NCBI GenBank assembly: GCA_013538855.1
Contig: JABXJS010000199.1
Location: 1 to 45,416, forward strand
Direction: 5' to 3'
Length of the DNA: 45,416 nucleotides
Origin: Herpetosiphonaceae bacterium
GTDB taxonomy: Bacteria > Chloroflexota > Chloroflexia > Chloroflexales > Herpetosiphonaceae
Made by a program: the position numbers and the translations under genes. Under the pieces are notes generated by a model. The model had not been told where the DNA came from, did not search any database, and saw only the letters and a list, made by a program, of their open reading frames with translations. How positions within the stretch are numbered: position 1 is the first letter of the stretch; each line of letters starts with the position of its first letter. Below are positions 530-16,127 of the stretch, one piece after another.

Positions 530-1135
530 CTAGACGACGAGCTGGGGCAGATGATTAATTTGCAGCACATGGGGCGCAGCCTGTGGAAAAAAACGGACTG
601 TACTGACTGACGCGGGCATGACGCTAAAGCGCAACAGCGCATCTAGCGGCAGCATCAGACAGTAGGCCAGAATGGCGCGGATCACGTCACAGTGGCTGAC
701 GATGGCGATATGCTGTTCGGGGTGCAGCGTATGAAGCCGCAGCAGCGCAGTGAGCGCCCGCTGCTGCACGGCCACCATCGGCTCGCCCTCGGGCGGCACG
801 GCCAGGCTGCGCACCGTATTCCAGTACGTCCACTGTGGATCAGCGCTCAGCTCAGTAAAGGTGCGGCCAGTCCACGTGCCGAAGTTGATCTCGGCAATAT
901 CTGGCTCGACATTGACAGGCAGATTGTGCGCTGCGGCGATCAGCTCGGCGGTGGCCATGGTGCGCTCTAGCGGGCTGGAGTAGAGCGCCTGGAGCGGAAC
1001 AGCGGCCAGCTCTGCGGCCAGCGCCTGCGCCTGACGCTGGCCCTCGGCGCTAAGCTGAACACCAGGACGCTGGCCAGACAGCTCTTGGCCAACGACGGCG
1101 TGAGCGGCATGGCGCACGAGCAGAAATGTGGTCAC
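530..1135 (-). CDS. Histidine phosphatase family protein (phosphoglycerate mutase-like)
   Basis: This is a 201-residue member of the histidine phosphatase superfamily (branch 1), which transfers phosphate through a phosphohistidine. The catalytic signature is at the very N-terminus (FLLVRHAAH, residues 4-12). The family motif SSPLERTMATAELI follows near residue 53, and a second catalytic His lies in IVSHCDVIRA. The length is typical of cobalamin phosphatase or broad-specificity PhoE-like enzymes. The start is a GTG that overlaps the TGA of the upstream hydrolase-like gene by four bases (GTGA), implying translational coupling. As the last gene of the operon it may dephosphorylate a sugar-phosphate intermediate; that is inferred from context only. 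The substrate cannot be read from the sequence. Confidence 0.88.
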   Translation of the reverse strand: MTTFLLVRHAAHAVVGQELSGQRPGVQLSAEGQRQAQALAAELAAVPLQALYSSPLERTMATAELIAAAHNLPVNVEPDIAEINFGTWTGRTFTELSADPQWTYWNTVRSLAVPPEGEPMVAVQQRALTALLRLHTLHPEQHIAIVSHCDVIRAILAYCLMLPLDALLRFSVMPASVSTVRFFPQAAPHVLQINHLPQLVV

Positions 1136-2022
1136 CGCTGTGCCCCAAGCACATAGCGCTCAACGACTTGGCGGGCAAAGGTGGCAAACTCTTGTGGGTC
1201 ATTGGGCGGGCTGGTGTGATGCGGACGCCGACCGATCGACGGCGGTGTAAAGCAGAGCGTGAGCGTGATATCGAACTCAGCCAGCGCCGCCATCTGACGA
1301 TCAAACCACGCGACAGCGTTGGGCCGGTGCCAATCGGCCCAGCTGATGCCAGTGCGAATGCTGCGCACGCCGAGCTTGCGGAACCAGTGGACCGCCTCGT
1401 CAAGGCGATGGTCCTCAAAGTGGAACCACTGGCACAGGCCCATGCGGCGGTCGAAGTACTCGAGCGCTGGCTTGGGCGAGCCATCGGCGCGGATCAGGCC
1501 CATATAGAAATGGCGATAGTAGGAGCTGCCTTCGCTCTCCTTGTGGCGGGTTGTCGCCTCCCAAGTGGGCGGAAGATCGAACAAGCTATACCAAAACACG
1601 CGCTCAGCGCGGCCAAGCAGCAGCTCGGCGGTGCGCTGAATGCCAAAGACCTGCACTTCATCGGCACCGAAGGTGGAGACGCCAACCTCGGTGACCCAGA
1701 CTGGAAGGTGGGTGACAGCGCGAATCTCAGCGAGCTTCGCAGGCCAGTCATCGATCTTCCAGTGGTTCCAGTCGAGCGGAAAGCCGTGGACAGCGACGGC
1801 ATCGACGTAGTCGAGGGTGCCAAGCGCCTGGAGGTGTTGAATAAAGATTGGATCAATTGGCGAGATGCCACCCATCACCAATGGCATGCGCGGTGCAAGC
1901 TGGCGGATGGCACCAGCGCCAAGGCTGATCATGGTGGCAAACTCGCTCCAATCAGGGTCCAGCTCGAAATCCCAGTGGGACATATTGTTTGGCTCATTCC
2001 ATAGCTTGATCGCTTCGATCAT
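1132..2022 (-). CDS. Glycoside hydrolase-like TIM-barrel protein, apparently circularly permuted
   Basis: This 296-residue protein resembles clan GH-A enzymes (GH39/GH5-like), which use two glutamates on barrel strands 4 and 7. LWNEPNN at residues 7-13 is the strand-4 acid/base motif (Glu10), and VWVTEVGVSTF around Glu112 fits the strand-7 nucleophile. The C-terminal third (about 195-290) reads like the normal beginning of such a protein: GLCQWFHFEDHRL, then LGVRSIRTGISWADWHRP, then LTLCFTPPS and FARQVVERY. In unpermuted relatives that Tyr leads directly into the WNEPN strand. The ATG at 2022 follows GGAGGTGTC and overlaps the upstream TGA as ATGA, so the short N-terminus is real rather than a truncation. 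A longer frame opening at 2058 would lie inside the upstream CgeB gene and lacks this site. It may be a glycosidase, a transglycosidase or a carbohydrate-binding regulator of the pathway. Confidence 0.8.
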   Translation of the reverse strand: MIEAIKLWNEPNNMSHWDFELDPDWSEFATMISLGAGAIRQLAPRMPLVMGGISPIDPIFIQHLQALGTLDYVDAVAVHGFPLDWNHWKIDDWPAKLAEIRAVTHLPVWVTEVGVSTFGADEVQVFGIQRTAELLLGRAERVFWYSLFDLPPTWEATTRHKESEGSSYYRHFYMGLIRADGSPKPALEYFDRRMGLCQWFHFEDHRLDEAVHWFRKLGVRSIRTGISWADWHRPNAVAWFDRQMAALAEFDITLTLCFTPPSIGRRPHHTSPPNDPQEFATFARQVVERYVLGAQR

Positions 2023-3113
2023 GACACCTCCGCAGTGAGCGTTGATTGAGAGCGCCACTCGCGCACATAGCCCTCCAGCTCACAGGCGCGCTGAGCAGCT
2101 GTGTGCTCGGCCAGCACGCGCGCGCGGGCGCGCTGCGCGATGGCTTGACGTGCAGCAGAGTCAAGCTGAAGGTAGCGTAAGACATCGGCGGTGGAGCGAG
2201 CGAGCAGAATCTCTTCATTGGGGACAAAAAACGTTTCGATGCCCGGCCAGACATCGCTGATGATCGGAACGCCGCAGGCGGCGGCCTCAAACAAGCGCAC
2301 GCTTGGCGCAAAGCCAGCGCGAATCATATCGGCGCGGGTCACATTGAGGGTAAAGGTCTGCTGATTATAAAAGCGACGGTGGCGATCAGGCGGGATGTGG
2401 GCGCAGTGCTGCACATTGCTGGGCCACGCATCGAGGTCGGGATACTGCGGGCCAGCAACAACAAAGTGCTCGGCGGGCAAGGCTTGGGCCGGCGCGAAGA
2501 GGAAGCGCTCGACGCTGGGCTGGCGGTCGGCGCTATAGGTGCCGAGGTAGCCGAGGAGCCATGTGTGCGCGACATCCTCGGGCGCATACAGGTCTGGATC
2601 GACGGAGCAGTAGAGCGGCCGGGCCATAGGCGAGCCATACTCGCGCTCCAGCAGCTGGAGGGTTGGGCCACCGGTAAAGGAGAGGTAGCAGTGGTAGGCG
2701 GCGATCAACTCGGGCGTGAGGTACTCGTAGTCGTGGTTGGCAAGCTTCGCGAGTGTGACAGGAGTGTCAATATCATAAAAGGCCGTCATGACCTGGGCCT
2801 GGCGCAGCACCCACTGGCCGACGGCGACGCCCTCGGGGACATAGGAGCCAACAATCACGAGGTCGGCGGCGGCGACCTGGGCCGCAAAGCGCTGCTGGAG
2901 GTCAGCGAGCGACGAGTACAGCTCGGTCTGCGCATAGGGCGGATGCGGCAGATCGCGGTTCTCGGCGTACCACGGAACATCGCGCTCTAGAAAGAGCAGC
3001 GAGTGTCCGCGCTCGGACAGGGCGCGCACAAGGCCGCGATAGGTTGTGGCGTGGCCATTGCCCCAGGCGGAGGTAATGGACAGGCCAAGGATAACAATCG
3101 AGAGCGGCTCCAT
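2019..3113 (-). CDS. CgeB-family glycosyltransferase
   Basis: This 364-residue GT-B-type glycosyltransferase belongs to the CgeB group (spore maturation protein CgeB-like, DUF3880 plus Glyco_trans_1_2). Its N-terminal half starts with a Rossmann strand, IVILGLSITSAWGNGHAT, where the Gly-rich loop resembles those of its two neighbours. The C-terminal donor-binding half has the family pattern VRLFEAAACGVPIISD, then GIETFF, then a terminal helix with RVLAEHTAAQRA. It follows the 3113-4207 paralogue with a TGATG junction and has GGAGGT five bases before its ATG. It should transfer a sugar from a nucleotide donor in the cytoplasm. Donor and acceptor are not predictable. Confidence 0.87.
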   Translation of the reverse strand: MEPLSIVILGLSITSAWGNGHATTYRGLVRALSERGHSLLFLERDVPWYAENRDLPHPPYAQTELYSSLADLQQRFAAQVAAADLVIVGSYVPEGVAVGQWVLRQAQVMTAFYDIDTPVTLAKLANHDYEYLTPELIAAYHCYLSFTGGPTLQLLEREYGSPMARPLYCSVDPDLYAPEDVAHTWLLGYLGTYSADRQPSVERFLFAPAQALPAEHFVVAGPQYPDLDAWPSNVQHCAHIPPDRHRRFYNQQTFTLNVTRADMIRAGFAPSVRLFEAAACGVPIISDVWPGIETFFVPNEEILLARSTADVLRYLQLDSAARQAIAQRARARVLAEHTAAQRACELEGYVREWRSQSTLTAEVS

Positions 3114-4207
3114 CAGACACCTCCCACCGCAGACGAGACCGCCATCACCTCCTCGAACTGGGCGGCGCGGTGAGCGTAGGTGTGCGCGCCGAGGACGCGG
3201 CGCAGCGCGGCCTGGCCGATCGAGTGGGCGCGCTCGGGCGTGAGCTGCTCCAGAATACGAGCGACCTCAGCGCCATCGTGGGCGACGAGCACCTCGCGAT
3301 CTGGCTCAAGAAAGGTCTCGATGCCTTCCCAGGCATCACAGAGCAGGCAGGCAGCCGCACCAGCGGCCTCAAAGACGCGCGTTGGCGGCGAGAAGCCATA
3401 GCGGGCCATGCTGGCGCGATTAATGTTGAGCACTGCGCGGGCCGTGCAGTTAAACGCATTGTGATCTTTGGTGTACAGATGGCCGATGTAGCGCACATTG
3501 GACGGCATGGGCTTATCGCCCCAGCCATTGCCAGCGAGGATAAAGCTGCGCCGTGGAAGGGTTGCCGCCGCAGCGAGAAAGAACTCCTCGACGCGCTGCT
3601 CGCGGTCGGGCAAGCGATTGCCAAGAAAGCCAAGATCGGCCTGAAAGCGCGGGTCAGGGCTGACAGGATGGTGGGTAGCAGGATCGAGGGCGTTGTAGAT
3701 CGGAATACATGCGCGAGCGCCGCGGGCGGTGTACGCCTGCACAACCGGATCGCCGCCGCCGTAGGTGAGAACCATATCGTAGCCGGGGATAGCGCGCCAA
3801 AACGGATCGGCGGGATCGGCGTCGATGCGGTCGAGCGTGACGGGCGCATCGACATCCCAGAAGACCACGCGATTATCCGGGCGTTTGAGATCGAGCACCG
3901 CCGCCTCAAGCAAAGCATCAAAGACGCCGACGCCGCTGGCCTTGGCGATCAGATCAGCGTCGCGAGCGGCAGCGAGGGCTGAGTAGACACCCGCCTCGGT
4001 AGCCGGGTAGACGACGACCTTGGCCCAGTCGGGATCGGGAATATCGCGGTGGGCTTGGCGATCGTAGGCGTCTGGCTCATAGAAGGTGATGCGATGGCCA
4101 CGGCTATGCAGGGCTTTGATAATGCCACGGTAGTAGGTGGCCGCGCCGTTCCAGTACGCCGAAACGAGGCTTGATCCAAAAAAGGCTATATTGAGGCCAT
4201 GGGCCAT
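3113..4207 (-). CDS. CgeB-family glycosyltransferase
   Basis: This is a 364-residue paralogue of the gene immediately downstream and of the same length. The N-terminal segment FFGSSLVSAYWNGAATYYRG matches the family's first strand and loop. VVFWDVDAPVTLDRI (about residues 139-153) parallels AFYDIDTPVTL in its neighbour. The C-terminal domain has TRVFEAAGAAACLLCD followed by WEGIETFLEPDREV. Its start is the ATG after AGGAGGTACTTC and lies 22 bases inside the preceding CgeB-like gene. The presence of three related but clearly diverged enzymes in a row suggests successive sugar additions rather than recent duplication. Confidence 0.87.
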   Translation of the reverse strand: MAHGLNIAFFGSSLVSAYWNGAATYYRGIIKALHSRGHRITFYEPDAYDRQAHRDIPDPDWAKVVVYPATEAGVYSALAAARDADLIAKASGVGVFDALLEAAVLDLKRPDNRVVFWDVDAPVTLDRIDADPADPFWRAIPGYDMVLTYGGGDPVVQAYTARGARACIPIYNALDPATHHPVSPDPRFQADLGFLGNRLPDREQRVEEFFLAAAATLPRRSFILAGNGWGDKPMPSNVRYIGHLYTKDHNAFNCTARAVLNINRASMARYGFSPPTRVFEAAGAAACLLCDAWEGIETFLEPDREVLVAHDGAEVARILEQLTPERAHSIGQAALRRVLGAHTYAHRAAQFEEVMAVSSAVGGV

Positions 4208-5319
4208 GAAGTACCTCCTTGAGAGCGGGGCTGGCCTAGCTCAGCGCAAACAGCCAGCAGCTCATCGACACGATGACGACACGTATGGCGCTCCCTGATG
4301 GTGCGCAGGCCATTGCGGGCCAGGGTTTGGGCAAACTCAGCGTCGCTGAGCACCTGCTGGAGCAAGCGCTGCATCTCGGCCCCGCTGTGCGCGATCAAAA
4401 AATCCACGCCAGGGGCGAACAAGTGCTCGCAGTCATCCCATGGTGAGCAGATCAGCGGAATGCCACAGGCCAGCGCCTCGAACACACGGATCGTCGGGAT
4501 GCCGGGGAGCGACTCGACGTAGGGGCGGCGGAGCACGTGGACGGTGGCGCGAAACTGCGCCAGCACCTGGGGAGCCTGGTAGTTCGGCAGCCAGCCAGCG
4601 TACTCCATGCCAGCGGCGGACAGCTCCTGAAGCGCGGCGGGCGGATAGCGCACGCCGTAGACACGTGCGCAGGCGTGTAGCTCACGCACAGGGTTAATCA
4701 AAAACTCACGTAGTTCGTTGGAGCGCTCCTCATCGCCCCAGTTGCCAATCCAGACGACATCGCCGCTGTAGGTGCTGGTGGGACGCGGATAAAAGAGGCG
4801 TGTGTCGGCGGCCTCGTGCCAGACCCAGACGTGCTCGGCCCAGCCGTGTTGCAGATAGAGATTGCGCACCTTCGCGCCAAACGCGAGCACGCCATCGTAG
4901 TGGCGCAGATCATAGGCGCGCATCGCCGCAGGCGCAGTGACCGAGCGGTGGTGGGTGTCGTGAAACAGCAGCGTGTACGACTGGGTGCGGGCGCGATGCG
5001 CACCGATCCGCTGCACAAGCTGCGGATCGCTCCACTCGTGGACGATCACCACATCAGCAGAGTCGAGCGTGGCATCGAGATCGAGGGAGGCAAGATCGTA
5101 GAAGGCGTAGTGCAAGCCAGGGAAGGCCTGTTGGAAATGTGTGATCGCCGCCGCGCCATACTCAGCGACGAGATTGGTGCGACTCCAGCCGCTGCGCGGC
5201 TCGCAGACAAGCACAGCGTGGCCGCGCGCCTGTAGCTCGGTGATCACACCGCGCAGAAAATGGGCGTTGCCATTGTTCCAGTCCGAGACCACCGAGTGAT
5301 AGAACAGCACAAAGCGCAT
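4186..5319 (-). CDS. CgeB-like glycosyltransferase
   Basis: This 377-residue protein is the most diverged of the three CgeB-like enzymes. The N-terminus MRFVLFYHSVVSDWNNGNAH matches the first strand and loop of the family. YDGVLAFGAKVRNLYLQHGW and VWVWHEAADTRLFYP mark the domain junction. The C-terminal half carries TIRVFEALACGIPLICSPWDD and a closing RHTCRHRVDEL helix. An AGGAGGT lies six bases before the ATG, and the start overlaps the stop of the GT4 gene as TGATG. Its own 3' end overlaps the next start by 22 bases. Soluble, with no membrane segment. It is probably a cytoplasmic transferase acting in sequence with its neighbours. Confidence 0.84.
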   Translation of the reverse strand: MRFVLFYHSVVSDWNNGNAHFLRGVITELQARGHAVLVCEPRSGWSRTNLVAEYGAAAITHFQQAFPGLHYAFYDLASLDLDATLDSADVVIVHEWSDPQLVQRIGAHRARTQSYTLLFHDTHHRSVTAPAAMRAYDLRHYDGVLAFGAKVRNLYLQHGWAEHVWVWHEAADTRLFYPRPTSTYSGDVVWIGNWGDEERSNELREFLINPVRELHACARVYGVRYPPAALQELSAAGMEYAGWLPNYQAPQVLAQFRATVHVLRRPYVESLPGIPTIRVFEALACGIPLICSPWDDCEHLFAPGVDFLIAHSGAEMQRLLQQVLSDAEFAQTLARNGLRTIRERHTCRHRVDELLAVCAELGQPRSQGGTSWPMASI

Positions 5320-6446
5320 CAGATTACCTCCTGACGAGCAGCCGCAGGCAGGCGCAGATTGAGGGCGGGGGCAGGCTGGGCTTGACCGAGCAACTGGCGG
5401 TAGGCGTGCACATAGTTCGCGGCCATTGCGCAGGTGGTCAGGTGCTGAGCGCGCGCATACGCCTGACGTGCCAGGCGCTCACGCCGCACATCATCAGCGA
5501 TCAGTGCAGCCAAGGCGGACTGGAGCTGCGCGTGATCGTTGGGATCGACAAAGATTGCTTCATTGCCCCACAGCTCACGCAGACTAGGAATGGAGCCAAG
5601 CACCAAGGCGCAGCCGGACAGCGCGGCCTCCAGCACCGACAGCCCAAACGGCTCGTAGCGCGCAGGGAGGGCATAGATCGCGGCGCGGCTCAGCCAGCTG
5701 GCCATGGACTGCGCGTCCAGACAGCCGAGAGCGTGCACATGCTGATGAAGCGCCGTGCCACCGCTAGGATGCTCGGAGGAGCCAGCCACGTACACGGGCC
5801 AGTCGAGCTGTGGCGCAACAGCATCGAGCGCCGCAACATTCTTCGCAGCGTCCCAAAGGCGACCAGCGGCCATGATCAGCGGCTGCTTCCGTGCGCGCGT
5901 AAACTGGCGGGGATTGCGGCCATTCAAAATTACCTGTGAGCATGGGAGCGGCCCATAGAGCTGCTGCAGCGCACGCAGCATAGCCTGGGTTGGTGCGACG
6001 ACGAGGTCGGCGGCCTGGAGGCCAGCGCGCACAGCAGCGCGGTACCTGCGCCACTGTGGCGGCGGCGGCGTGGCGTGAACGCCCTGCCACCATGACAGCA
6101 CGCACGAGTGCGCGACCATCAGCACCGGGGCGCTCCACGGCAGGCAGCCATGGGCGTAGCCGTTGAGGTGGATGAGATCGGGCTGATGCTGCTGCTCAAG
6201 GCGCAGCAGCCACGCGCCAGCCGCCTGCACGTCCGGCCATGGATCGTCCATCCATTCCAGCTTATAGGAGCTTTCCGCGACGGTCAGGTTGGGCACAGCG
6301 CGGGCCATCGACCACTGAGCGGCGCTCAGCGGCGCGCCCATGGAGGCCAGCACCACCTCAATGCGGTAGGATTGGAGGGCCTGCGCCAGCTCGATGGCGT
6401 AGGACCAAACCCCGCCAACAGTATCAGTTGTCATCAACAATTTCAT
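5319..6446 (-). CDS. Glycosyltransferase family 4 protein
   Basis: This is a 375-residue GT-B enzyme of family GT4 (retaining). The N-terminal acceptor domain begins MKLLMTTDTVGGVWSYAIEL, including the Gly-Gly phosphate-binding loop. The C-terminal donor domain contains IMAAGRLWDAAKN and the E-x7-E motif in RYEPFGLSVLEAALSGCALV (about residues 265-285), which holds the nucleotide-sugar ribose and phosphate. The ATG overlaps the stop of the Gfo/Idh/MocA gene (ATGA). It is the only GT4 enzyme in an otherwise CgeB-dominated operon, so it may add the first or a branching sugar. This ordering is inference. Confidence 0.9.
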   Translation of the reverse strand: MKLLMTTDTVGGVWSYAIELAQALQSYRIEVVLASMGAPLSAAQWSMARAVPNLTVAESSYKLEWMDDPWPDVQAAGAWLLRLEQQHQPDLIHLNGYAHGCLPWSAPVLMVAHSCVLSWWQGVHATPPPPQWRRYRAAVRAGLQAADLVVAPTQAMLRALQQLYGPLPCSQVILNGRNPRQFTRARKQPLIMAAGRLWDAAKNVAALDAVAPQLDWPVYVAGSSEHPSGGTALHQHVHALGCLDAQSMASWLSRAAIYALPARYEPFGLSVLEAALSGCALVLGSIPSLRELWGNEAIFVDPNDHAQLQSALAALIADDVRRERLARQAYARAQHLTTCAMAANYVHAYRQLLGQAQPAPALNLRLPAAARQEVI

Positions 6447-7447
6447 ACGCGTTGATACATTGCATCGAGTGTTTCAGCGACGTGGACAAGGTGTTCGATA
6501 GCGGGGTCAAAGCAGGCGCTGTGAGCGAGGCGCGCAGCCCAAGCCTCAAGTGCGCGGCCGCCCCAGTCGTCGGGCGGGCTACTGAGCAGCTGGCGCGCGG
6601 TACCCTGAAAGCGCTCGACCGTAAAGTCGTAGAACGAGCCGTTGACATTGCGCAGCGCAGCGCCGCCCTGCGAGCCATAGAATGCAGCCTCAATCACTGC
6701 ATCGCAGCCAGCAGGCAGGTGCCACGAGCACGCTAAGCGCAGACTTGTGCCATTGGCAAGGTCAATCAGCGCAGCGGCGTAGTCTTCGACGCGATCCTGC
6801 ATTGTTTGGAGCGGCTGGCCGCCAGCAAAGAGACGGCTTGTCACATGCTCCACCGCTGGAAAATCCAACATCCAGAGTGCTAAATCAACGAGATGAATGC
6901 CTAAATCAATTACACATCCGCCACCAGCAAGCTGCGGATCATAGAACCACGGTTTATCCGGCCCATAGGCATTGTGAAAGGTAAGATCGGCGGCGTAGAT
7001 TTGGCCAAGCTCGCCGGAGAGAATCAGCTGGCGCAGCGTGTCCATGCCGCTGATATAGCGGTAGGACAGATCGACGCCGAGCAGGCGGTCGTGCGCCTGC
7101 GCGGCCGCGATCACCTGCTGATTCTCGGCAGCAGTGCGGCCGAGCGGCTTCTGGCAAAAGACGGCCAGGCCATGCTCAAGGGCCTGCAGCGACTGTGCAG
7201 CGTGCAATGCGCTTGGCGTTGCAATCACCACGCCATCAAGATCAAGCGCGAGCAGATCGGCGAGATCGTGGCCGGGCTGAGCGGCGGGGGCGATGGCCAG
7301 GGCGGCATCGACCAGCTCGGGCACAGGATCGGCAACCGCAGCAATCGTGACGAGATCGCGCTGGGCGAGCGCCTCCATGCGCATGCGTCCAATCCAGCCA
7401 ACGCCAAGGAAGCCAAGCCGTGGACGAGTTGCAGTTAATCGAGACAT
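6443..7447 (-). CDS. Gfo/Idh/MocA family oxidoreductase
   Basis: This 334-residue NAD(P)-dependent sugar dehydrogenase is of the glucose-fructose oxidoreductase/inositol dehydrogenase type. The Rossmann glycine motif is LGFLGVGWIG (11-20), and the family catalytic segment appears as VFCQKPLGRTAAEN, with the EKP-type lysine present but Glu replaced by Gln. DLGIHLVDLALWML carries the usual catalytic His region. The ATG at 7447 is preferred because MSRLTATRPRLGFLG places the Rossmann strand near the N-terminus; a longer upstream frame runs inside the MDR gene and is not protein-like. It overlaps the MDR gene by 13 bases. In many polysaccharide clusters an MDR domain and a Gfo domain are fused in one bi-domain oxidoreductase, so the two adjacent genes may form one enzyme system. 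Confidence 0.9.
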   Translation of the reverse strand: MSRLTATRPRLGFLGVGWIGRMRMEALAQRDLVTIAAVADPVPELVDAALAIAPAAQPGHDLADLLALDLDGVVIATPSALHAAQSLQALEHGLAVFCQKPLGRTAAENQQVIAAAQAHDRLLGVDLSYRYISGMDTLRQLILSGELGQIYAADLTFHNAYGPDKPWFYDPQLAGGGCVIDLGIHLVDLALWMLDFPAVEHVTSRLFAGGQPLQTMQDRVEDYAAALIDLANGTSLRLACSWHLPAGCDAVIEAAFYGSQGGAALRNVNGSFYDFTVERFQGTARQLLSSPPDDWGGRALEAWAARLAHSACFDPAIEHLVHVAETLDAMYQRV

Positions 7448-8394
7448 AGCCACGCTTTCATAAATCCAGATGGGCGCTCCAGCGTCGCATCGAGCGCCGC
7501 CGCCAGCTGATCCAGCGGGAACGAGTGGGTGAGCAGCGGCTGTAGGGAGATCTGCTGGCTGACGAGCGCATCGAGCGCCGCCTGCATGCCGGCAACATAG
7601 ACAGCGGGATCGCGCTCGTGGGCGTTGATCACGTCCAAGCCGCGCCAGTTCCACAGCTGCATATTGACCTGGCGCGGGCCATCCTGATGATAGCCAGCAA
7701 TCACGAGGCGGCCGCGCTCGGCGGTCAGCTCGCTGGCCAGATCGAGCGGCCACTGGCGGCCAGTAGCCTCGATCACCACCGGGCAGCCCTGGCCATTGGT
7801 CAGCGTCTGGACCTGCTCGATAACGCGCCAGTGATCATCCATCACAACCGTGTGCGCCGCGCCCCACGTGCGGGCGAGATCGAGCGCCTCAGAGCGGCGG
7901 GTGATCGCGATCACCTGTGCGCCCGCTGCGGCGGCCAGCCGGGTTAGGACAAGGCCAAGAAAGCCAACCCCGACAATCGCCACCGTCTGCTGCGGCTTGA
8001 TCGCGCTACGGCGAAAAATATTAAAGGCACAGCCAAGCGGCTCCAGCGGCAGCGGCTGATCTGCCAGCTCAGCAGGCAGGCGCACCAGCTGTGTCGCGGC
8101 GGCGACATCGTACTCAGCGAAGGCGTGGCCAGAGAGCAAGGCGACGCGCTCGCCGACGTGCCAATCGGCGACGGCGGAGCCGACAGCGTCGATAACGCCC
8201 CAGCCCTCGTGGCCGGGCGCGCCGGGCGCACAGGGGTACTCAAACCAGGGCTGGCCCGTCCATAGCTCCAGATTGGAGGCGCAGACGCCACAGCCCTGCA
8301 GGCGCACGCGCACCTGATCGGGCGCTGGCTGCGGGACAGGAACATTGACCAGCGCCGTCGAGCGTGGCCCAGTGATCGTTACAGCGCGCATCAT
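7435..8394 (-). CDS. Zinc-type alcohol dehydrogenase (MDR superfamily)
   Basis: This is a 319-residue medium-chain dehydrogenase/reductase. The GroES-like N-domain has the catalytic-zinc motifs GCGVCASNLELW and APGHEGWGVI. The NAD(P)-binding domain carries VAIVGVGFLGLV. The four-cysteine structural-zinc lobe usual in alcohol dehydrogenases is missing, as in the short MDR proteins found in polysaccharide clusters. Two tandem ATGs (8394 and 8391) overlap the epimerase stop as ATGATG; either may be used and no strong ribosome site is seen, suggesting coupled reinitiation. It probably oxidises or reduces a sugar or polyol intermediate together with the following Gfo/Idh/MocA protein. Confidence 0.88.
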   Translation of the reverse strand: MMRAVTITGPRSTALVNVPVPQPAPDQVRVRLQGCGVCASNLELWTGQPWFEYPCAPGAPGHEGWGVIDAVGSAVADWHVGERVALLSGHAFAEYDVAAATQLVRLPAELADQPLPLEPLGCAFNIFRRSAIKPQQTVAIVGVGFLGLVLTRLAAAAGAQVIAITRRSEALDLARTWGAAHTVVMDDHWRVIEQVQTLTNGQGCPVVIEATGRQWPLDLASELTAERGRLVIAGYHQDGPRQVNMQLWNWRGLDVINAHERDPAVYVAGMQAALDALVSQQISLQPLLTHSFPLDQLAAALDATLERPSGFMKAWLCLD

Positions 8395-9509
8395 AGAGTC
8401 AGCCCACGCTCGGCAAGCTGCTGCTTGGCCACGAGCACCTGATCGCGCACCACCTGGCCCTCCAGCCATGCGGCAAGATCGGCCATGCCGTGCTTGAAAT
8501 CGACCTGTGGGTGATAGCCAAGCAAGCGCTCAGCGCAGCTGATATCGGCATAGCAGTGGCGAATATCGCCAACGCGGTACTCGCTGGTGATCTGCGGCTC
8601 GATATGCTCTTTGCCCAGCACAGCGGACATCTGCAGGGCAATATCGCGGACGGTCGTGTTGATGCCGCTGCCAACGTTGATCACGGAGCCGGCAGCGTCG
8701 GGCGACTCGAGCGCCAAGCGGCAGGCGCGCGCCACATCGTAGACGCTGACGAAATCGCGCTGCTGGTAGCCATCCTCAAAGATCAGCGGCGGCTGGTCGT
8801 TGAGCAGGCGTGCGGCGAAGATGGCCAGCACGCCGGTGTAGGGATTCGACAGCGCCTGGCGCGGCCCATAGATGTTGAAAAAGCGCAGCGCGACCGTGGG
8901 AATCGAATATGCCTGACCAAGCAGAAGGCAGACGCGCTCCTGATCGTACTTCGAGAGCGCGTAGATCGAGGCCAAGGCGGGTATCTTCGTCTCGGGGGTG
9001 GGGACAGGCTGAAGCGGCGCGTCGGCCGCAGAGCGCAGCTCCCACTGATGGTTCATCAACTGCTGGCGCGAGCGCTCGGCACCGGCGACGAGGCGGCCAT
9101 CGGGCGTGCGGTAAAGGCCCTCGCCATAGACGCTCATGCTTGAAGCGACGACGAGGCGCTCGACAGGCTGCTGAATCAGCGCCTCCATCAGCACAGCGGT
9201 GCCAAGGTTATTGGTCGTGGTATAGTGCGCGACCTCGTACATGCTCTGGCCGACGCCGACAGCCGCAGCTAAGTGATAGACAGCATCGACGCCTTGGAGG
9301 GCGCGGTGGACAGCAGCGGGATCGGCGACATCGCCGACGATCAGCTCAACATCGGGGCTAAGGTAGGCTGGTGGATGTTTGCCAGGGCCGTGAACCTGCT
9401 CGACCAGCGAATCGAGCACGCGCACGCGATAGCCCTGGCGCAGCAGCTCATCGGCCACGTGGGACCCAACAAAGCCAGCGCCACCAGTAATAAGAACGAG
9501 TTGATTCAT
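8391..9509 (-). CDS. NAD-dependent epimerase/dehydratase (extended SDR)
   Basis: This 372-residue extended short-chain dehydrogenase is of the nucleotide-sugar epimerase type (UDP-glucose 4-epimerase or dTDP-glucose 4,6-dehydratase relatives). The NAD motif TGGAGFVG lies at 8-15. SSMSVYGEG supplies the catalytic Ser region, and Tyr183/Lys187 form the YxxxK pair (IYALSKYDQE). FNIYGPRQALSNPYTG is the typical substrate-loop motif. The ATG at 9509 is chosen because GGAGAGG sits six bases upstream and the Rossmann strand begins at residue 4; an upstream in-frame start at 9548 adds residues unlike the family. It is the first gene of the operon and would supply the sugar nucleotide for the downstream transferases. 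Confidence 0.92.
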   Translation of the reverse strand: MNQLVLITGGAGFVGSHVADELLRQGYRVRVLDSLVEQVHGPGKHPPAYLSPDVELIVGDVADPAAVHRALQGVDAVYHLAAAVGVGQSMYEVAHYTTTNNLGTAVLMEALIQQPVERLVVASSMSVYGEGLYRTPDGRLVAGAERSRQQLMNHQWELRSAADAPLQPVPTPETKIPALASIYALSKYDQERVCLLLGQAYSIPTVALRFFNIYGPRQALSNPYTGVLAIFAARLLNDQPPLIFEDGYQQRDFVSVYDVARACRLALESPDAAGSVINVGSGINTTVRDIALQMSAVLGKEHIEPQITSEYRVGDIRHCYADISCAERLLGYHPQVDFKHGMADLAAWLEGQVVRDQVLVAKQQLAERGLTL

Positions 9510-9605
9510 CCCAGACCTCTCCATAAAAATATGGGCCGTTACGCCCACATAGAAGACAAACTAGCAGTAGATCGCTGCAAAAAGCATGCCAGCAACTTAG
9601 AAGAA

Positions 9606-9645
9606 CCTTAAAAACGAACAAAACCCTGGCGAATTGCCAGGGTTT
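9606..9645 (-). terminator. Rho-independent terminator after the STAS gene
   Basis: A perfect 10-bp stem (AAACCCTGGC / GCCAGGGTTT, 9621-9645, five-base loop) is followed on the minus strand by a T-rich tail (TGTTCGTTTTT, 9610-9620). It lies between the end of the STAS gene and the start of the glycan operon, so the two units should be transcribed separately. No confident promoter of the glycan operon was seen between 9510 and 9605. Confidence 0.85.
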
Positions 9646-9691
9646 CAAAGCTCGCAAAGAGCCGTGTATGAGAAGCAGCGAACGCTATGAA

Positions 9692-10057
9692 CTACGAAGA
9701 TGGAGCTTGGGCACCGTTTGCATCGACGTACGCAGCGAGATCCTGCTCTTCGATAATCGGCATAAAGCGTGTCATCTCAACCATTTTAAAGATTTTCTGA
9801 TGATGCGGACTGACATGAATACAAAAAATCTTATGGCCCTCTTTGCGGGCAGCAACAACAAACTTCAACAGCACAGAGATGCCAGCGGAGTTGATAAAGG
9901 CCACATCAGCAAAATCCAACACCGTAATTGGGTTCATGTTGCTGCTTGCTTGCTCGATCGCTGAGGCCGACACCGCATCGACGCTGTTGGTCAGGATCCG
10001 CAGAATCGCTACATCGCCCAATTCTTCGCGCTTGATGACTGTAGATACATCGCTCAT
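9692..10057 (-). CDS. STAS-domain anti-sigma factor antagonist
   Basis: This 121-residue protein has the fold and signature of SpoIIAA/RsbV anti-anti-sigma factors. The core FADVAFINSAGISVLLKFVVAA contains Ser57, the residue in the position phosphorylated by the partner kinase. In the unphosphorylated state such proteins bind the RsbW-type kinase and free its target. The motif is N-S-A-G rather than the common D-S-S/T-G. A GAGGAA ribosome site precedes the ATG. Unlike the rest of the set it has its own candidate promoter (10101-10129) and terminator. Its partners are likely the RsbW-like protein and the SpoIIE-type phosphatase encoded just upstream. Confidence 0.9.
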   Translation of the reverse strand: MSDVSTVIKREELGDVAILRILTNSVDAVSASAIEQASSNMNPITVLDFADVAFINSAGISVLLKFVVAARKEGHKIFCIHVSPHHQKIFKMVEMTRFMPIIEEQDLAAYVDANGAQAPSS

Positions 10058-10100
10058 GAATCATTCCTCGTTATCGGCTAACAGCCCGATGGTGACTTGC

Positions 10101-10129
10101 ATGATAGTAGAGCGACCCTACTTTTGCAA
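10101..10129 (-). promoter_or_regulatory. Candidate promoter of the STAS gene
   Basis: On the minus strand TTGCAA (10124-10129) and TATCAT (10101-10106) are spaced by 17 bases, about 45 bases before the STAS ATG. Together with the 9606-9645 terminator it would allow the antagonist to be made independently of the chemosensory operon. Confidence 0.5.
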
Positions 10130-10157
10130 CGCAGGCCAGATGAACGAATGATGACAA

Positions 10158-10586
10158 TTAGCTCGGCTTGTTGGGGCGAAAGATGCGCAGCTTCAAACAG
10201 GTGCCCTCGCTGGAGCTTTGCACCTCGTACTGATCGACCAGCTCGCTGATCAAGTACATGCCAAATCCGCGCAGCATGCCTGCTTCGAGGTTATCCTCCT
10301 CGACCACACGGCGATCGGTGTTGAAGGACTGCACGCCGGGACCGCTGTCGATGATCTCGATCTCCAGCTTATCCTGATCGAGGGAGAAGATCACCTCAAC
10401 CGAAGCCGTGCGTTTACCGCTGTTGCCGTGCTCGATGGCATTGGTAACCGCCTCGCTGACAGCGAGCTTCAAATCCTCAATGCGCTCATCGGAGAATCCC
10501 ATGGTCGTACCGAGCTCGGCGGCGCTAGCGCGCACCACGCGCTCAAACAACAGATCGGACGGAATATGGAGATGGATGCGATTCAT
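10158..10586 (-). CDS. RsbW/SpoIIAB-like serine kinase anti-sigma factor
   Basis: This is a 142-residue HATPase_c_2 protein. The ATP-site motifs are complete: the N box LAVSEAVTNAIEHG (41-54), the G1 box DSGPGV (80-85) and the G2 box RGFGMYLI (106-113). Proteins of this kind sequester a sigma factor or another target and phosphorylate a STAS antagonist. Its ATG overlaps the TPR gene's stop (ATGA), and it is the last gene of the long chemosensory operon before the separately promoted STAS gene. No sigma factor gene is in the window, so the target is unknown. Confidence 0.92.
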   Translation of the reverse strand: MNRIHLHIPSDLLFERVVRASAAELGTTMGFSDERIEDLKLAVSEAVTNAIEHGNSGKRTASVEVIFSLDQDKLEIEIIDSGPGVQSFNTDRRVVEEDNLEAGMLRGFGMYLISELVDQYEVQSSSEGTCLKLRIFRPNKPS

Positions 10587-12133
10587 CGACGACCTCCCTC
10601 AGCAGGTATGCGGCCCTGCGGTGTTGTTTGTTCTTGGGCAACCAAATGTTCATAGCGGCGCAGATAAGCCTTGCCCAGCGAGCTATTGCCTACCTGCAAG
10701 TAGCAGGCCCCTAGATAGTACAGAGCCTGGGTATGGCGCGGATTACGGCGCAAAACTTTTTCGAACAGGGGGATGGCCTGAGCTGGCTCGAGCAACTCTT
10801 TGTAGCACAGGCCGAGCATAAACGTAGTCTCAATATCATCGGGCCAGTGCTGCAGCACATAGCTAAACTCTTTGGCGGCCAGATCATAGCGGCGGCGGCG
10901 CGTATACATATAGCCAAGGTCGTAGCGCAGCGAGTGGGCATTGGGAGCCAGCTCGACCGCCCGACGCCAGGCCGCCAAGGCCCAGCCCTCGTGGCCGAGC
11001 ATGGTGTAGATAAAGCCGAGCAGGTAGTGCGCCGTAGGATCGTCTGGGAGCAGCTGGACAGCGCGCTCGAACGCACGCATGGCCGCGTGATGCTTCTCCA
11101 GATCATAGAGCAGCTTGCCCATCTGGAGAAAGACATTGCCGTCGTTGGGGCGCAGGCGCGCCGTATTGAACAGCTCGGTGTAGGCCTCGCGATGGCGACC
11201 CATAAAGCGCAGAATCGCGCTGATGCGCAAGCGCGACTCCATGTAGTGCTGATCTTGGGGTGGAATAGCGCGGTACTCGGCGAGTGCCGCCTCCCAGCGG
11301 CGTGCGCGGGCCAACAGATTCGCCTGAAGATAGTGGGCGCGATTTTCCTGCGGACGCCATTGCAGCAGCGCGCGGTAGATGCGGCTTGCCTCCTCATCGT
11401 AGCCCTGCGACTTCAGGTCCTCGCTGAGGCGGTAGTACCAGTCGGCGACCTCCTGCTCGGACTTATTGACGAGCACCTCGTCGCCCATGCTGGGGGAGAT
11501 AAAGGTTGGCTCGACCTGGAGCGCCTCGCCGAAGCAGCGCTGGGCCAGCTCGTGCGCGCCGTGGGCCTGGTGCATCAGGCCCATGTAGTACAGCGGCTCG
11601 CCAGCGTGCGGGCGCAGCTCGCGGGCCGAGGTAAAGTGAATATAGGCGCGGCCGGCATCGTCCATCAGCTGGTAGGCGCGGCCCAGCGCAAAGTGGGCCT
11701 CATACAGGCCCGTGTTATGCTCGAGCGCCTCCTTGAAAGCAGCGATCGCGCGCTCAATCTGACCGAGGGCCGCAAACGCCACGCCGAGATTGTAGTGGGC
11801 CTCAGCCAGCTGCGGATCGGTCTGCACGGCCTCGAGGTACTCGCGCTGGGCGGTGCTCCAATCATCCTGAAAGGCCCAGGCGTTGCCGATGTAGAGATAG
11901 ATAATTGCGCGCTCGCGATCGTAGATCTGCGAGCGCTCATCGCCCTCAACATAGGCGGCAATTAAGGCCGTTTTGAAGTGCTCGATTGCTTCCTGGTACT
12001 GGGCTGCCAAGTAGGCTTTGATGCCACGGCCAAAGGCAGCACCAAGCCGCGTGCCGCTCATGAAGCGCTCGCTGCCAGCGAACGTATCGAGATCGAGCGG
12101 CATAAATGTTAGGTGGTCAAGACTGGCGCTCAT
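10583..12133 (-). CDS. Tetratricopeptide repeat protein
   Basis: This 516-residue protein is built almost entirely of TPR helices. Clear units include AEAHYNLGVAFAALGQIERAIAAFKEAL, YEAHFALGRAYQLMDDAGRAY and TAHYLLGFIYTMLGHEGWALAAW (quoted in part), continuing to about residue 500. There is no signal peptide or membrane segment. It is linked by ATGA overlaps to the phosphatase before it and the kinase after it, so it is presumably a scaffold or adaptor between the chemosensory and partner-switching proteins. No enzymatic motif is visible. Confidence 0.88.
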   Translation of the reverse strand: MSASLDHLTFMPLDLDTFAGSERFMSGTRLGAAFGRGIKAYLAAQYQEAIEHFKTALIAAYVEGDERSQIYDRERAIIYLYIGNAWAFQDDWSTAQREYLEAVQTDPQLAEAHYNLGVAFAALGQIERAIAAFKEALEHNTGLYEAHFALGRAYQLMDDAGRAYIHFTSARELRPHAGEPLYYMGLMHQAHGAHELAQRCFGEALQVEPTFISPSMGDEVLVNKSEQEVADWYYRLSEDLKSQGYDEEASRIYRALLQWRPQENRAHYLQANLLARARRWEAALAEYRAIPPQDQHYMESRLRISAILRFMGRHREAYTELFNTARLRPNDGNVFLQMGKLLYDLEKHHAAMRAFERAVQLLPDDPTAHYLLGFIYTMLGHEGWALAAWRRAVELAPNAHSLRYDLGYMYTRRRRYDLAAKEFSYVLQHWPDDIETTFMLGLCYKELLEPAQAIPLFEKVLRRNPRHTQALYYLGACYLQVGNSSLGKAYLRRYEHLVAQEQTTPQGRIPAEGGRR

Positions 12134-13254
12134 GGTTGCTCCCCTTGCGCTTCCCGCATCGTAGCTGGAGAGATCAGACGGTACTCTTCAATGACAGGGC
12201 GAAGCTGGCCCTGAACCTCACGGGCAATGCCGCGTCCAAACTGCTGGCTGACAATCTCGGTGACAGCGCGCAAGATCGTGGCGCTGTCGTTAAGCTCGCG
12301 CATTGGCTCTAGCTCCAAGGACTGCCACCACTCTGTGGCCGTTTGCACGCCGATGATATCAGCAACAATTGAGCGCATCTCATCGACGACATCGCGCAGG
12401 CGACGGCGGAGCACAACCATGGTGATATCGTCCACCGGCGGCCGCCCGCGCGTCCACGTGCGAACCTCAGCTAGAATGCGCGCCATCAGCGCACGCGGCT
12501 TCAAATGTCCAACGCTCTCCAGCAGCTCCTGAAGGCGACTAAACCCATATAGTTCTTCAAAATTGTCGGTGGCCTCGACGACGCCATCGGTATAGAAGAC
12601 AGCCGTTTGGCCATACTCAAGCGTTAGGCGGTGCTCGGTATAGTGATCGAGCTCGGCCACGCCAAGCGGCAGGCCGGTGGCCTCGATCTCGACAATCGTG
12701 TCGGCGATCAGCAGCGGATAGTTATGGCCCGCATTGGCAAAGACTATCTCGCCAGTGAGCGTGTTGATCAGCGCATAGAGCATGGTAACCATGCCGTGGG
12801 GCATCTCTTCGAGCAGCGTATTATTCACCGCTGCCAAGGTTGTGCCAGGGGCCAGGCCCTCGCGGCGCGCCTCGGAGCGAAAGACCGTGCGCGCCACGGC
12901 CATGCGCAGGGCGGCAGGTAAGCCTTTGCCGCTCACATCGCCGATCATAATACCCTGCTGGCCGGGCTGCGGGGCCAAGAAATCGTAGAGATCGCCGCCA
13001 AGCTCGCGGGCAGGCAGCGACACAGCGCTAATCTCCCAGCCGGGGATGCGCGGCACCGTCTCGAGCATAAGGCCCTGCTGTAGATCGCGGGCGAGCCGCA
13101 GATCCTGCTCTAGCTCTTGCTGGCGCACATCGACCTGCGCCGCGATTGGCTGGCGCTGAGTGCGCGTCGCGCGGGTCATGTGCAAGCGGCTATGGCTCAG
13201 CATAGAGCTAGGTATTTTTCCAGAGATGTGACGAGCGGTCCGCTGTTTAGCCAC
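12130..13254 (-). CDS. SpoIIE/RsbU-type PP2C serine phosphatase
   Basis: This 374-residue protein contains a short coiled segment (40-62, RQQELEQDLRLARDLQQGL) typical of the linker before RsbU-type domains. The PP2C/SpoIIE phosphatase core follows, with metal-binding motifs GGDLYDF (86-92), GDVSGKGLPAA (105-115) and GHNYP, then FYTDGVVEA and PPVDDITMVVL. Such enzymes dephosphorylate STAS antagonists to reactivate them. A further ~86 residues after the domain, containing WWQSLELEPMRELNDSA, have no obvious family. The start is a GTG eight bases inside cheR with GGAG about ten bases upstream; a later Met at residue 18 is possible. There is no sensor domain, so input probably comes from the chemosensory proteins. 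Confidence 0.9.
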   Translation of the reverse strand: MAKQRTARHISGKIPSSMLSHSRLHMTRATRTQRQPIAAQVDVRQQELEQDLRLARDLQQGLMLETVPRIPGWEISAVSLPARELGGDLYDFLAPQPGQQGIMIGDVSGKGLPAALRMAVARTVFRSEARREGLAPGTTLAAVNNTLLEEMPHGMVTMLYALINTLTGEIVFANAGHNYPLLIADTIVEIEATGLPLGVAELDHYTEHRLTLEYGQTAVFYTDGVVEATDNFEELYGFSRLQELLESVGHLKPRALMARILAEVRTWTRGRPPVDDITMVVLRRRLRDVVDEMRSIVADIIGVQTATEWWQSLELEPMRELNDSATILRAVTEIVSQQFGRGIAREVQGQLRPVIEEYRLISPATMREAQGEQP

Positions 13255-14692
13255 GATGATCTTTCTCCAAAAGCTCCAACCAACGCTGACACGTTTCGAT
13301 CAACCAAGCAGCTGCGACACCATCGACCAAGGCGGTCGGATCGATATCGGACAGCTTGCGCACGGTGTTGCGGTACTCGCGCTGTGCCGCCGCCGTGCGC
13401 CCAAGCTGGCGATAGCTCTCGGCCAAATAGAACGAGACTGTCGGCGACTCCGGTATCAAGTAGAGGGCGCGCTCGAGCAGGCGTGCGCCCTCGGCCCAAG
13501 CACCATTCTGCACCTCGAGCACACCGAGCACGAAGTATGCGGTCTCTTGCATCACATCAAGCTCGAGCGCGCGGCGAGCCTCGGCGGCGGCCTGCTCGTG
13601 CTCACCAAGATCGGCGTGGAGCTGCGCCGTCAGGGCCAAGAGCGCTGGTGTGCGCTCGTGGTATGGTGCGCGATTGAGCAGATCAAGGGCGGCGCGCTGC
13701 TGACCGGTGCTGCGCAGCTGCTGGGCCTGCTCAAGGATCGAGCGCGGCGGCTCGGCGCGGCGTGGCGCAGGCTCGCTGCGCTGAACACGTCGGATGGGCC
13801 AGTTAAACGTTGACGCCGGTTTCTCCGGCCGCGCGCTCTGGGCTGGGCGCTGCTGGCGCTGTGGCCGCCGCTGTGCGCCTTTGCGATAGATAAAGGCACC
13901 ATCGACCTCGACTGTCTCGAAGCCATCGAACACGCCCCAGAGCGACTCAGAAAATCCCAAGAACAGATAGCCGCCATCGTTCAGCGCGTGGTAGATGCGC
14001 TCAACCAAGCGCTGGCATGTTGACAGCTGAAAGTAGATGGTCACATTTTGACAAAAAACCACATCGAGCTGTGCGGCCCAGCTTGGCCATGGATCAAGCA
14101 GATTGTGCTGTTCAAATTGTACCAATGATCGCACAACTGCGCTGACGCTGAGGCCGCCATTTTCCTGCGGCTCAAACCATCGTTTGTAGTCGGCGCTAAT
14201 ATTCGCCAGGGTGCGCCCGCGGTACTCGCCACGCCGCGCCACATCGAGCACCTGCTGGCTCAGGTCGGTGCCCCAGATCTCGACCGGGCGGCTGAGCGGC
14301 CAGCCAAACACCTGCAGCGCCACGAGCGCAATACTATATGGCTCCTCGCCAGTCGAGCAGCCAGCGCTCCAGCAGCGAATCGGCTGCAGCGGCGGACGGC
14401 TGCGCTGGAGTGTTGGAAAGACATACTCGCGCAGTGCGCGGTAGTGCGCTGGATTGCGCAAAAACTGCGTCTCGTGGTTCGCAAGCTGCTCGGCAAGGTT
14501 GCGCAGCTCCGCCGTGCCGGCGCGGGTGAACAACAGCTCGTAGTAGGCCGGCACCGTGAGGCCCAGCACACGTGCGCGGTGGGCAACCGCAGTATCGCCC
14601 TGCTTCTGGCGGCTCTCGTCGATGTACAGACCGAACTGGGCGGCCAGCCGATCGCGCAGCTGCTCCCACTTGATGTTGCTATGCTGGGTCAT
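13247..14692 (-). CDS. cheR: CheR-type protein-glutamate methyltransferase with C-terminal TPR domain
   Basis: This is a 481-residue fusion. The CheR domain uses S-adenosylmethionine to methylate glutamates of chemoreceptors; its SAM motif is CWSAGCSTGEEPYSIA (107-122). NHETQFLRNP is the all-alpha N-domain motif. The usual CRNVLIYF appears as CQNVTIYF, so the conserved Arg is Gln. A Pro/Arg/Gln-rich linker (about 272-315) leads to three or four TPR units ending near 470, a common arrangement in CheR proteins of non-flagellar systems. The ATG overlaps the cheB stop (ATGA). Confidence 0.92.
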   Translation of the reverse strand: MTQHSNIKWEQLRDRLAAQFGLYIDESRQKQGDTAVAHRARVLGLTVPAYYELLFTRAGTAELRNLAEQLANHETQFLRNPAHYRALREYVFPTLQRSRPPLQPIRCWSAGCSTGEEPYSIALVALQVFGWPLSRPVEIWGTDLSQQVLDVARRGEYRGRTLANISADYKRWFEPQENGGLSVSAVVRSLVQFEQHNLLDPWPSWAAQLDVVFCQNVTIYFQLSTCQRLVERIYHALNDGGYLFLGFSESLWGVFDGFETVEVDGAFIYRKGAQRRPQRQQRPAQSARPEKPASTFNWPIRRVQRSEPAPRRAEPPRSILEQAQQLRSTGQQRAALDLLNRAPYHERTPALLALTAQLHADLGEHEQAAAEARRALELDVMQETAYFVLGVLEVQNGAWAEGARLLERALYLIPESPTVSFYLAESYRQLGRTAAAQREYRNTVRKLSDIDPTALVDGVAAAWLIETCQRWLELLEKDHRG

Positions 14693-15759
14693 AGCCGCGA
14701 CCGCTGGGCGAGCGTCAGGGCGGTCAGGCGGGCAGGCAGATCATCAGCGGCGACGACCTGCATCGCGGCACCATTTTCGGCGGCGGCGCGCGGCATACCC
14801 CAGATCGCGCTTGAGGCCTGATCTTGCACCAGCGTGATTCCACCAGCCTTGCGCAGCGCGAGCAGACCGCTGGCCCCATCGCGGCCCATGCCGGTCAGGA
14901 TCACGCCGATCGTATGCTTCGGGCAGTGCTCGGCGGCCGACTGCAGCGTGACATCGATTGAAGGATACGGAATTAAGCGCGGCTCAACATCCAGCAGCAC
15001 GCGCCAGCAATCGACACGGGCGTGGTGGGTGTCGGGAACAACCAGCACCTGGCCGGGCTTAAGCTCCATTCCATCGCGGGCCAGCAGCACATCAAGCTGG
15101 CTACCGGCATTCAACCACTCAACCATATTTGCGACAAACCCTTCGGCGATATGCTGGACGATCAAAATAGCCGCCGGAAAATCGGCAGGCAGGCTGCGCA
15201 GCAGCGTGTAGAGCACGCGCGGGCCGCCAGTCGAGGCCCCAATCACCACCAGCTGATGCTCGGCACGCTCGGCGCGGGGCGTTGGTGGCAGGTCAAGCGG
15301 CGTTGGTCGCGGCCGACGGCGACCGCGCAGGTGGGTGACCACTTTCACGCGGGCGAGCATCTTGATGCGCTCGATCAAAAAGCGCTGCAGCGCCGGTGAG
15401 TGGGCCTGGGCGATATCCTTGGGCTTTTCGAGCACCTCAAGTGCGCCGGCATTGAGCAGCTGAAACGTCGTACCGCCATCGTGGCGGCCAAGCGAGGACG
15501 TCAGCACCAAGATCGGCGTTGGATGGTAGGCCATGATCTCCTCGGTGGCCTGCAGACCATCGACGAAAGGCATGCGCACATCCATCGTCACCAGATCGGG
15601 GTGCAGCTGCGCGACCATATCAACGGCCTCGCGCCCATTGCGCGCCTCGCCGATCACCATCAGCTGCGGATCGCTCGACAGAATCTCACGGATAATGCGG
15701 CGGGTAAGCGCCGAATCATCGACAATTAAAACCCGAATTGGCGCGCCGAGGCTGCTCAT
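14689..15759 (-). CDS. cheB: CheB chemotaxis methylesterase/response regulator
   Basis: This 356-residue protein has an N-terminal receiver domain with phospho-acceptor Asp60 (VTMDVRMP). Its C-terminal methylesterase domain carries the Ser-His-Asp triad: Ser176 in VIGASTGGP, His203 in IVQHIAEGF and Asp294 in LTGMGRDGASG. It removes or deamidates receptor methyl groups to oppose CheR. The ATG overlaps the response-regulator gene upstream (ATGA) and its stop overlaps cheR, so the three are translationally coupled. Confidence 0.95.
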   Translation of the reverse strand: MSSLGAPIRVLIVDDSALTRRIIREILSSDPQLMVIGEARNGREAVDMVAQLHPDLVTMDVRMPFVDGLQATEEIMAYHPTPILVLTSSLGRHDGGTTFQLLNAGALEVLEKPKDIAQAHSPALQRFLIERIKMLARVKVVTHLRGRRRPRPTPLDLPPTPRAERAEHQLVVIGASTGGPRVLYTLLRSLPADFPAAILIVQHIAEGFVANMVEWLNAGSQLDVLLARDGMELKPGQVLVVPDTHHARVDCWRVLLDVEPRLIPYPSIDVTLQSAAEHCPKHTIGVILTGMGRDGASGLLALRKAGGITLVQDQASSAIWGMPRAAAENGAAMQVVAADDLPARLTALTLAQRSRL

Positions 15760-16118: not shown

Positions 16119-16127
16119 AGTCATCTC

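Follow-up and report, generated by a model that had tools for sequence, protein, structure and literature searches.

In glycosidases of clan GH-A, strand 4 ends in an NE(P) motif that contains the acid/base glutamate, and strand 7 ends with the nucleophile glutamate. How, then, should a protein be read that carries the strand-4 motif immediately after its start codon, and at its C-terminus the segment that normally precedes it? Such a protein of 296 amino acids, here called cpGH for the circularly permuted clan GH-A-type glycosidase that it is taken to be, is encoded at 1132..2022 of the minus strand (stop codon included) in a contig stretch of 45,416 nucleotides (the window) from a Herpetosiphonaceae bacterium. 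Its residues 8-12 are WNEPN, and its residues 195-290 comprise the segment GLCQWFHFEDHRL...FARQVVERY. The preliminary description of this locus had noted both features; the position of WNEPN right after the start codon is confirmed in the 296-residue translation, and the displacement of the preceding segment to residues 195-290 is borne out both by position and by the rotation alignments described below. It had also given the interval 1132-2022 correctly, omitting that the gene lies on the minus strand. The best explanation overall, with a probability of about 0.88, is a naturally permuted clan GH-A-type (β/α)8 glycosidase.

The start codon of cpGH is an ATG at 2022-2020 and its stop codon a TGA at 1134-1132, with an RBS-like GGAGGTG 5′ of the ATG (2025-2031, minus strand). 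The CgeB-like glycosyltransferase gene upstream (2019..3113, minus strand) shares ATGA (2022-2019) with the start of cpGH, and the histidine phosphatase gene downstream (530..1135, minus strand) begins with a GTG at 1135 and shares GTGA (1135-1132) with its stop, and these overlaps on both sides make cpGH part of a tightly packed minus-strand gene run from 9548 to 530. Read on the plus strand, 1132-2022 yields a 292-residue frame that was discarded as a product of chance.

A mis-called or truncated gene, in which a canonical barrel has its true N-terminus upstream and ends in an unrelated C-terminal domain, would find some room in the window, where the frame stays open for 19 codons 5′ of the ATG. 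Set against this are 82 inspected loci from many phyla, in all of which homology to cpGH begins at one methionine or valine before WNEPN (ATG, or GTG in a few) and in which no upstream frame is conserved. The in-frame stretch 5′ of this common start ranges from 0 to 330 codons without conservation, and several loci have almost no open frame there: in one (L023) the frame starts exactly at the common methionine, and in two others (L004 and L055) a stop codon stands two codons 5′ of it, so that one extra codon remains. The C-terminal 100 residues, moreover, match exactly the segment that is absent at the N-terminus rather than an unrelated domain. A start common to 82 loci with no conserved frame upstream argues that cpGH is no miscall, and the chance of a truncated gene is close to nil; the preliminary description, which took the start as real from GGAGGTG and the ATGA junction, was right on this point.

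The order of the segments was examined by rotation of the sequence against unpermuted proteins. PslG of Pseudomonas aeruginosa (4zn2, 5bx9), the solved structure nearest to cpGH by sequence, matches a five-member profile in natural order as two swapped pieces of 9.1 and 25.6 bits, and matches the profile with residues 192-296 moved to the front as one collinear piece of 45.5 bits (E = 3.8e-11) that spans rotated positions 6-257 and PslG residues 25-300. With 31 canonical-order proteins of host relatives as targets, rotation raised the mean best-domain score from 56.7 to 76.6 bits, and a scan of cut points gave a plateau of 76-77 bits at cuts 160-205, with wrong cuts falling to as low as 33 bits. 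When rotated cpGH was used as a tblastn query against plasmid records, members of the permuted family matched in two pieces, and proteins from Rhizobium, Agrobacterium, and Allorhizobium matched in one piece with 98% coverage, 31-33% identity, and E-values down to 3e-35; a Paracoccus protein likewise aligns in one piece. Alignments of the R. etli, Allorhizobium, Agrobacterium, and Paracoccus proteins to rotated cpGH cover 298-299 columns with 132-142 bits, and the three canonical cousins that were also tested against the natural order each gave two swapped pieces. A copy from Xanthomonas sacchari, whose recorded reading frame is broken, was for that reason excluded from the rotation tests and from the tree described below.

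Smith-Waterman scores against two canonical cousins were 259 and 267 in natural order and, when all cut points were tried, peaked at 388 and 390 for cuts 184-194, with shuffled sequences at 53 or below, which places the joint near residues 185-194 and gives a linker of about 10 residues. This divides the gene, always on the minus strand, into barrel strands 4-8 (residues 1-184, 1471..2022), which align to residues 118-298 of the R. etli fused protein and 156-353 of the PslG structure; the new linker between the former C- and N-termini (residues 185-194, 1441..1470), which coincides with the best cut in the rotation scan; and barrel strands 1-3 with helix 3 (residues 195-296, 1135..1440), which form the N-terminal segment in canonical relatives. 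After rotation, the active-site motifs WNEPNN, HGFP, W[IV]TE.G.S, WYS..D, RT..SWA, TPPS, and RY stand in register. That cpGH is a natural circular permutation is thus held to be nearly certain.

An AlphaFold2 model, run on a 50-sequence alignment of the cpGH family, has a mean pLDDT of 91.2 and a pTM of 0.90. Its strands lie at residues 2-7, 48-53, 75-80, 108-113, 142-145, 195-197, 221-227, and 251-257, and its last helix at 277-295, so that the order reads strands 4-8, then strands 1-3, then helix 3. Five strands fall within residues 1-190 and three within 195-290, and the two segments are confidently predicted to form one fold, an eight-stranded barrel; its closure and the distance between its termini are model-based estimates drawn from the pTM, the strand order, and the alignment ranges. 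Together with the collinearity of homologues after rotation, the order of strands upholds the earlier proposal of a barrel opened between strands 3 and 4, and neither arrangement that had been named as contrary to it, residues 195-290 as a separate domain or residues 1-190 as a whole barrel, is seen. Aligned in sequence order, PslG (4zn2) matches only model residues 1-192, to chain residues 156-353 (172 residues, 2.3 Å, 24% identity), as expected of a permuted barrel under a sequential aligner. This match came from a separate structural alignment listing, PslG being absent from the first 50 Foldseek rows. The top Foldseek matches in sequence order were GH10, GH99, and unrelated TIM barrels, with the low TM-scores expected because the chain is permuted.

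Structural matching of this kind also bears on whether the rotated match could arise simply from the eight-fold pseudo-symmetry of TIM barrels. Unrelated barrels of this type can indeed be aligned to model residues 1-296 in shifted register, and 219 of 228 residues of the designed TIM barrel 7uek align over model residues 3-291. Such unrelated barrels nevertheless share only 5-12% identity with the model, compared with 24-33% for homologues whose specific motifs come into register after rotation, and a single cut-point optimum was found, at 184-194, with no other rotation scoring as well. Pseudo-symmetry is therefore given a very slim chance, and a permuted barrel remains the preferred reading.

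Homologues with the same order, which the preliminary description had suggested looking for, were found at the 82 loci with a common start, in many phyla. A scan of genome contigs recovered at least 586 relatives among 593 pattern-matched stretches. The best 80 of the 586 share 63-74% identity with cpGH from residue 1 to residues 290-296 in natural order, and come from Alphaproteobacteria, Acidobacteria, Verrucomicrobia, Gemmatimonadetes, Bdellovibrionales, Fibrobacter, Ignavibacteria, and other taxa. Many bacterial phyla share the permuted order. The gene was present, at full length each time, in 9 of 301 genomes sampled across the phylum of the host (E ≤ 1e-20), and among 100 relatives of the host in only one genome besides the host itself, so that its distribution is patchy. 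Plasmids also carry copies, with matches in 147 plasmid records when canonical-order cousins are counted in. The label "beta-xylosidase" found in records is an automatic name.

The unpermuted cousins are informative because they come with a partner. In R. etli p42b (RHE_RS22270, WP_011427519.1), Agrobacterium fabrum, Allorhizobium, and Paracoccus sp. AK26, a canonical-order barrel forms the N-terminal half of a protein fused to an NAD-dependent epimerase (Agrobacterium, WP_121692459.1; Paracoccus AK26, WP_167624239.1). The C-terminal half shares 52-56% identity with epim2, the stand-alone epimerase of a Bradyrhizobium cluster that carries the permuted protein. The fused glycosidases resemble cpGH in sharing 31-33% identity over the whole barrel after rotation and the same motifs, but differ in having canonical strand order and in being joined to an epimerase; genomes with the permuted protein encode the homologue of this epimerase as a gene of its own. 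A plasmid record of Xanthomonas sacchari (L131:8828-12085) holds the same fusion with its glycosidase part split over two frames, either a sequencing error or a pseudogene. A tree built from rotated sequences places permuted and fused proteins together on one side of a branch with 100/100 support, opposite 18 other canonical barrels; the fused branch is 5.7 long with placement support of 85/45, and the tree does not set the permuted proteins apart from it as a single clade with confidence.

The genes around both forms are related as well. Upstream of cpGH, the minus-strand run continues through a second and a third CgeB-like glycosyltransferase (3113..4207 and 4186..5319), a GT4-type glycosyltransferase (5319..6446), a Gfo/Idh/MocA oxidoreductase (6443..7753), a zinc-dependent alcohol dehydrogenase (7435..8469), and an epim1-like NAD-dependent epimerase/dehydratase (8391..9548). 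The open reading frame of the oxidoreductase overlaps the dehydrogenase gene by more than 300 bases and its domain starts at residue 112, so its true start is probably downstream. Clusters with fused glycosidases encode homologues of epim1 (52-63% identity to the window's gene), the alcohol dehydrogenase (57-60%), and, where present, the Gfo/Idh protein (51-60%), along with GT4 and CgeB-like glycosyltransferases, UDP-glucuronate decarboxylase, and TIGR04290 methyltransferase. Since the partner genes are homologous, permuted and unpermuted glycosidases seem to occupy the same slot in one pathway. Only one inspected locus, in a myxobacterial MAG (L040), has both forms side by side: a canonical-order fusion to epim2 at 7057-10269, in which CSPPP replaces WNEPN and HGFP is lost, adjoins a permuted copy that keeps WNEPN and HGFP. 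This single case fits replacement of one form by the other.

Within flanks of up to 6 kb in the 82 loci, the neighbors of cpGH relatives include TIGR04290 methyltransferase (62 loci), inositol-phosphate synthase (45), epim2 (44), a glycosyltransferase (43), nucleotidyltransferase (42), and TIGR04295 B12-radical SAM protein (32). A histidine phosphatase, whose homologue lies near cpGH in most related loci, was counted in 39 and 21 loci with two reference versions. In the host genome, homologues of TIGR04290 methyltransferase, epim2, and inositol-phosphate synthase lie off the window's contig, on contigs C101, C279, and C280 (L135, L132, L139). The Bradyrhizobium sp. 195 plasmid p195_2 has a 15-gene cluster (L112, 7634-23317) with no annotated flippase, polymerase, or exporter, and the seemingly cytosolic nature of its annotated products hints at a small intracellular glycoside. 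The pathway with CgeB-like glycosyltransferases, inositol-phosphate synthase, TIGR04290 methyltransferase, and TIGR04295 B12-radical SAM protein is widespread; no paper on it was found in the open literature searched, a scope outside which most subscription journals fall. Next to the sugar cluster, the window also encodes a set of chemosensory type (10583-18467): a TPR protein, a SpoIIE phosphatase, CheR with TPR, CheB joined to a receiver domain, and a hybrid kinase of the CheA type.

Within the barrel, both catalytic glutamates of clan GH-A can be placed. WNEPN is encoded at 1987..2001 (minus strand), with the putative acid/base Glu10 at 1993-1995, and the predicted nucleophile Glu112, in WVTEVG, at 1687..1689 (minus strand). 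Glu10 follows strand 2-7, equivalent to strand 4, and Glu112 ends strand 108-113, equivalent to strand 7. Both fall on glutamates in the PslG alignment, Glu112 on that of IWSTEWG, and both are invariant in 50 of 50 permuted sequences, as are N9, H79, W144, and R223, further active-site residues of the clan; together they correspond to the pattern known for clan GH-A. Catalysis would proceed as in retaining β-glycosidases, with Glu10 as acid/base, Glu112 as nucleophile, and a glycosyl-enzyme intermediate. A permuted barrel that is no glycosidase in vivo, serving instead as a binding or scaffolding pseudo-enzyme or as an accessory to an epimerase, would suit the fusion of the canonical counterpart to an epimerase, the biosynthetic neighbors, and the myxobacterial canonical copy without the NEP motif. 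The invariance of the glutamate pair and of R223, N9, H79, and W144 among the 50 permuted sequences argues for catalysis instead, which leaves the pseudo-enzyme rather unlikely; judged from its sequence, cpGH is probably an active retaining glycosidase or transglycosidase.

Where this enzyme would act can be narrowed. Because cpGH begins directly with strand 4, it has no signal peptide, and this lack of room for one, together with neighbors of the cytosolic sugar-enzyme type, makes an intermediate produced inside the cell its most likely substrate. The more specific role of trimming or transferring a β-linked sugar on an inositol-type glycoside intermediate in the cytosol is put forward tentatively, its inositol part resting on the neighboring genes.

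The chain of cpGH opens between helix 3 and strand 4, with the old C- and N-termini joined by the linker of about 10 residues. As to origin, the permutation may have arisen a single time, when a tandemly duplicated gene lost its ends as in the model proposed for GH70, within a pathway whose unpermuted glycosidase is an N-terminal fusion to a sugar epimerase. Another route, in which separate half-barrel genes were fused in reverse order instead of one gene being duplicated and trimmed, has in its favor that half-barrel fusion is a familiar notion in the evolution of (β/α)8 proteins. Yet strands 1-3 alone and strands 4-8 alone were never found adjoining at the loci to which the search with the canonical domain extended, and the nearest cousins are complete domains of canonical order; an origin from two pieces is accordingly judged improbable, and duplication with trimming of a single gene is preferred. 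On the whole, it appears somewhat favored that a clan GH-A permutation, perhaps the first described, became fixed a single time in an intracellular sugar pathway of wide distribution and replaced an epimerase-fused canonical domain. A permuted and an unpermuted enzyme in what seems the same pathway slot offer a matched pair for asking how permutation affects folding, activity, and independence of a fused partner.

The GH39 Pfam family PF01229 gave no match to cpGH, natural or rotated, and matched one of five family members when rotated (E = 0.0018); the only Pfam matches of cpGH were sub-threshold hits to Glyco_hydro_cc and Glyco_hydro_53, both raised slightly by rotation, with no GH70 or alpha-amylase family among them, and NCBIfam holds no family model for it. 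Canonical-order profile libraries thus see only weak fragments, and several hundred or more proteins probably bear generic or automatic names. Of the two barrel types, GH39 and GH5, with which comparison had been proposed, it is the GH39 type and not GH5 to which the nearest solved structure, PslG, belongs. The homology to PslG-like GH39 extends over the catalytic barrel (E = 3.8e-11 with the rotated profile), and the permuted order departs from it; unlike cpGH, PslG is canonical in order and, at 416 residues, larger. Weak matches to the rotated profile around strands 3-6 (E = 5e-4 to 0.1) came from GH39 beta-xylosidases (1px8, 1w91, and others), which differ in their canonical order and in their larger chains of about 500 residues.

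To our knowledge, few natural permutations of (β/α)8 enzymes are well documented. The preliminary description had considered the architecture unusual and perhaps the mark of an undescribed family; indeed, no description of a permuted family of this kind was found in the open literature searched, most subscription journals lying outside that scope, but permuted (β/α)8 glycosidases as such have a precedent in GH70. The GH70 glucansucrases are a permuted GH13 (β/α)8 barrel that starts at helix 3/strand 4, a route of duplication and truncation has been described for them, and unpermuted relatives (GtfC) are known (PMC4919382). GH70 enzymes belong to clan GH-H and are multidomain and extracellular, unlike cpGH, and the likeness is in permutation type only, with no homology claimed. 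Within that likeness, cpGH parallels GH70 as a natural permutation of a (β/α)8 glycosidase that is opened at nearly the same place and has unpermuted relatives.
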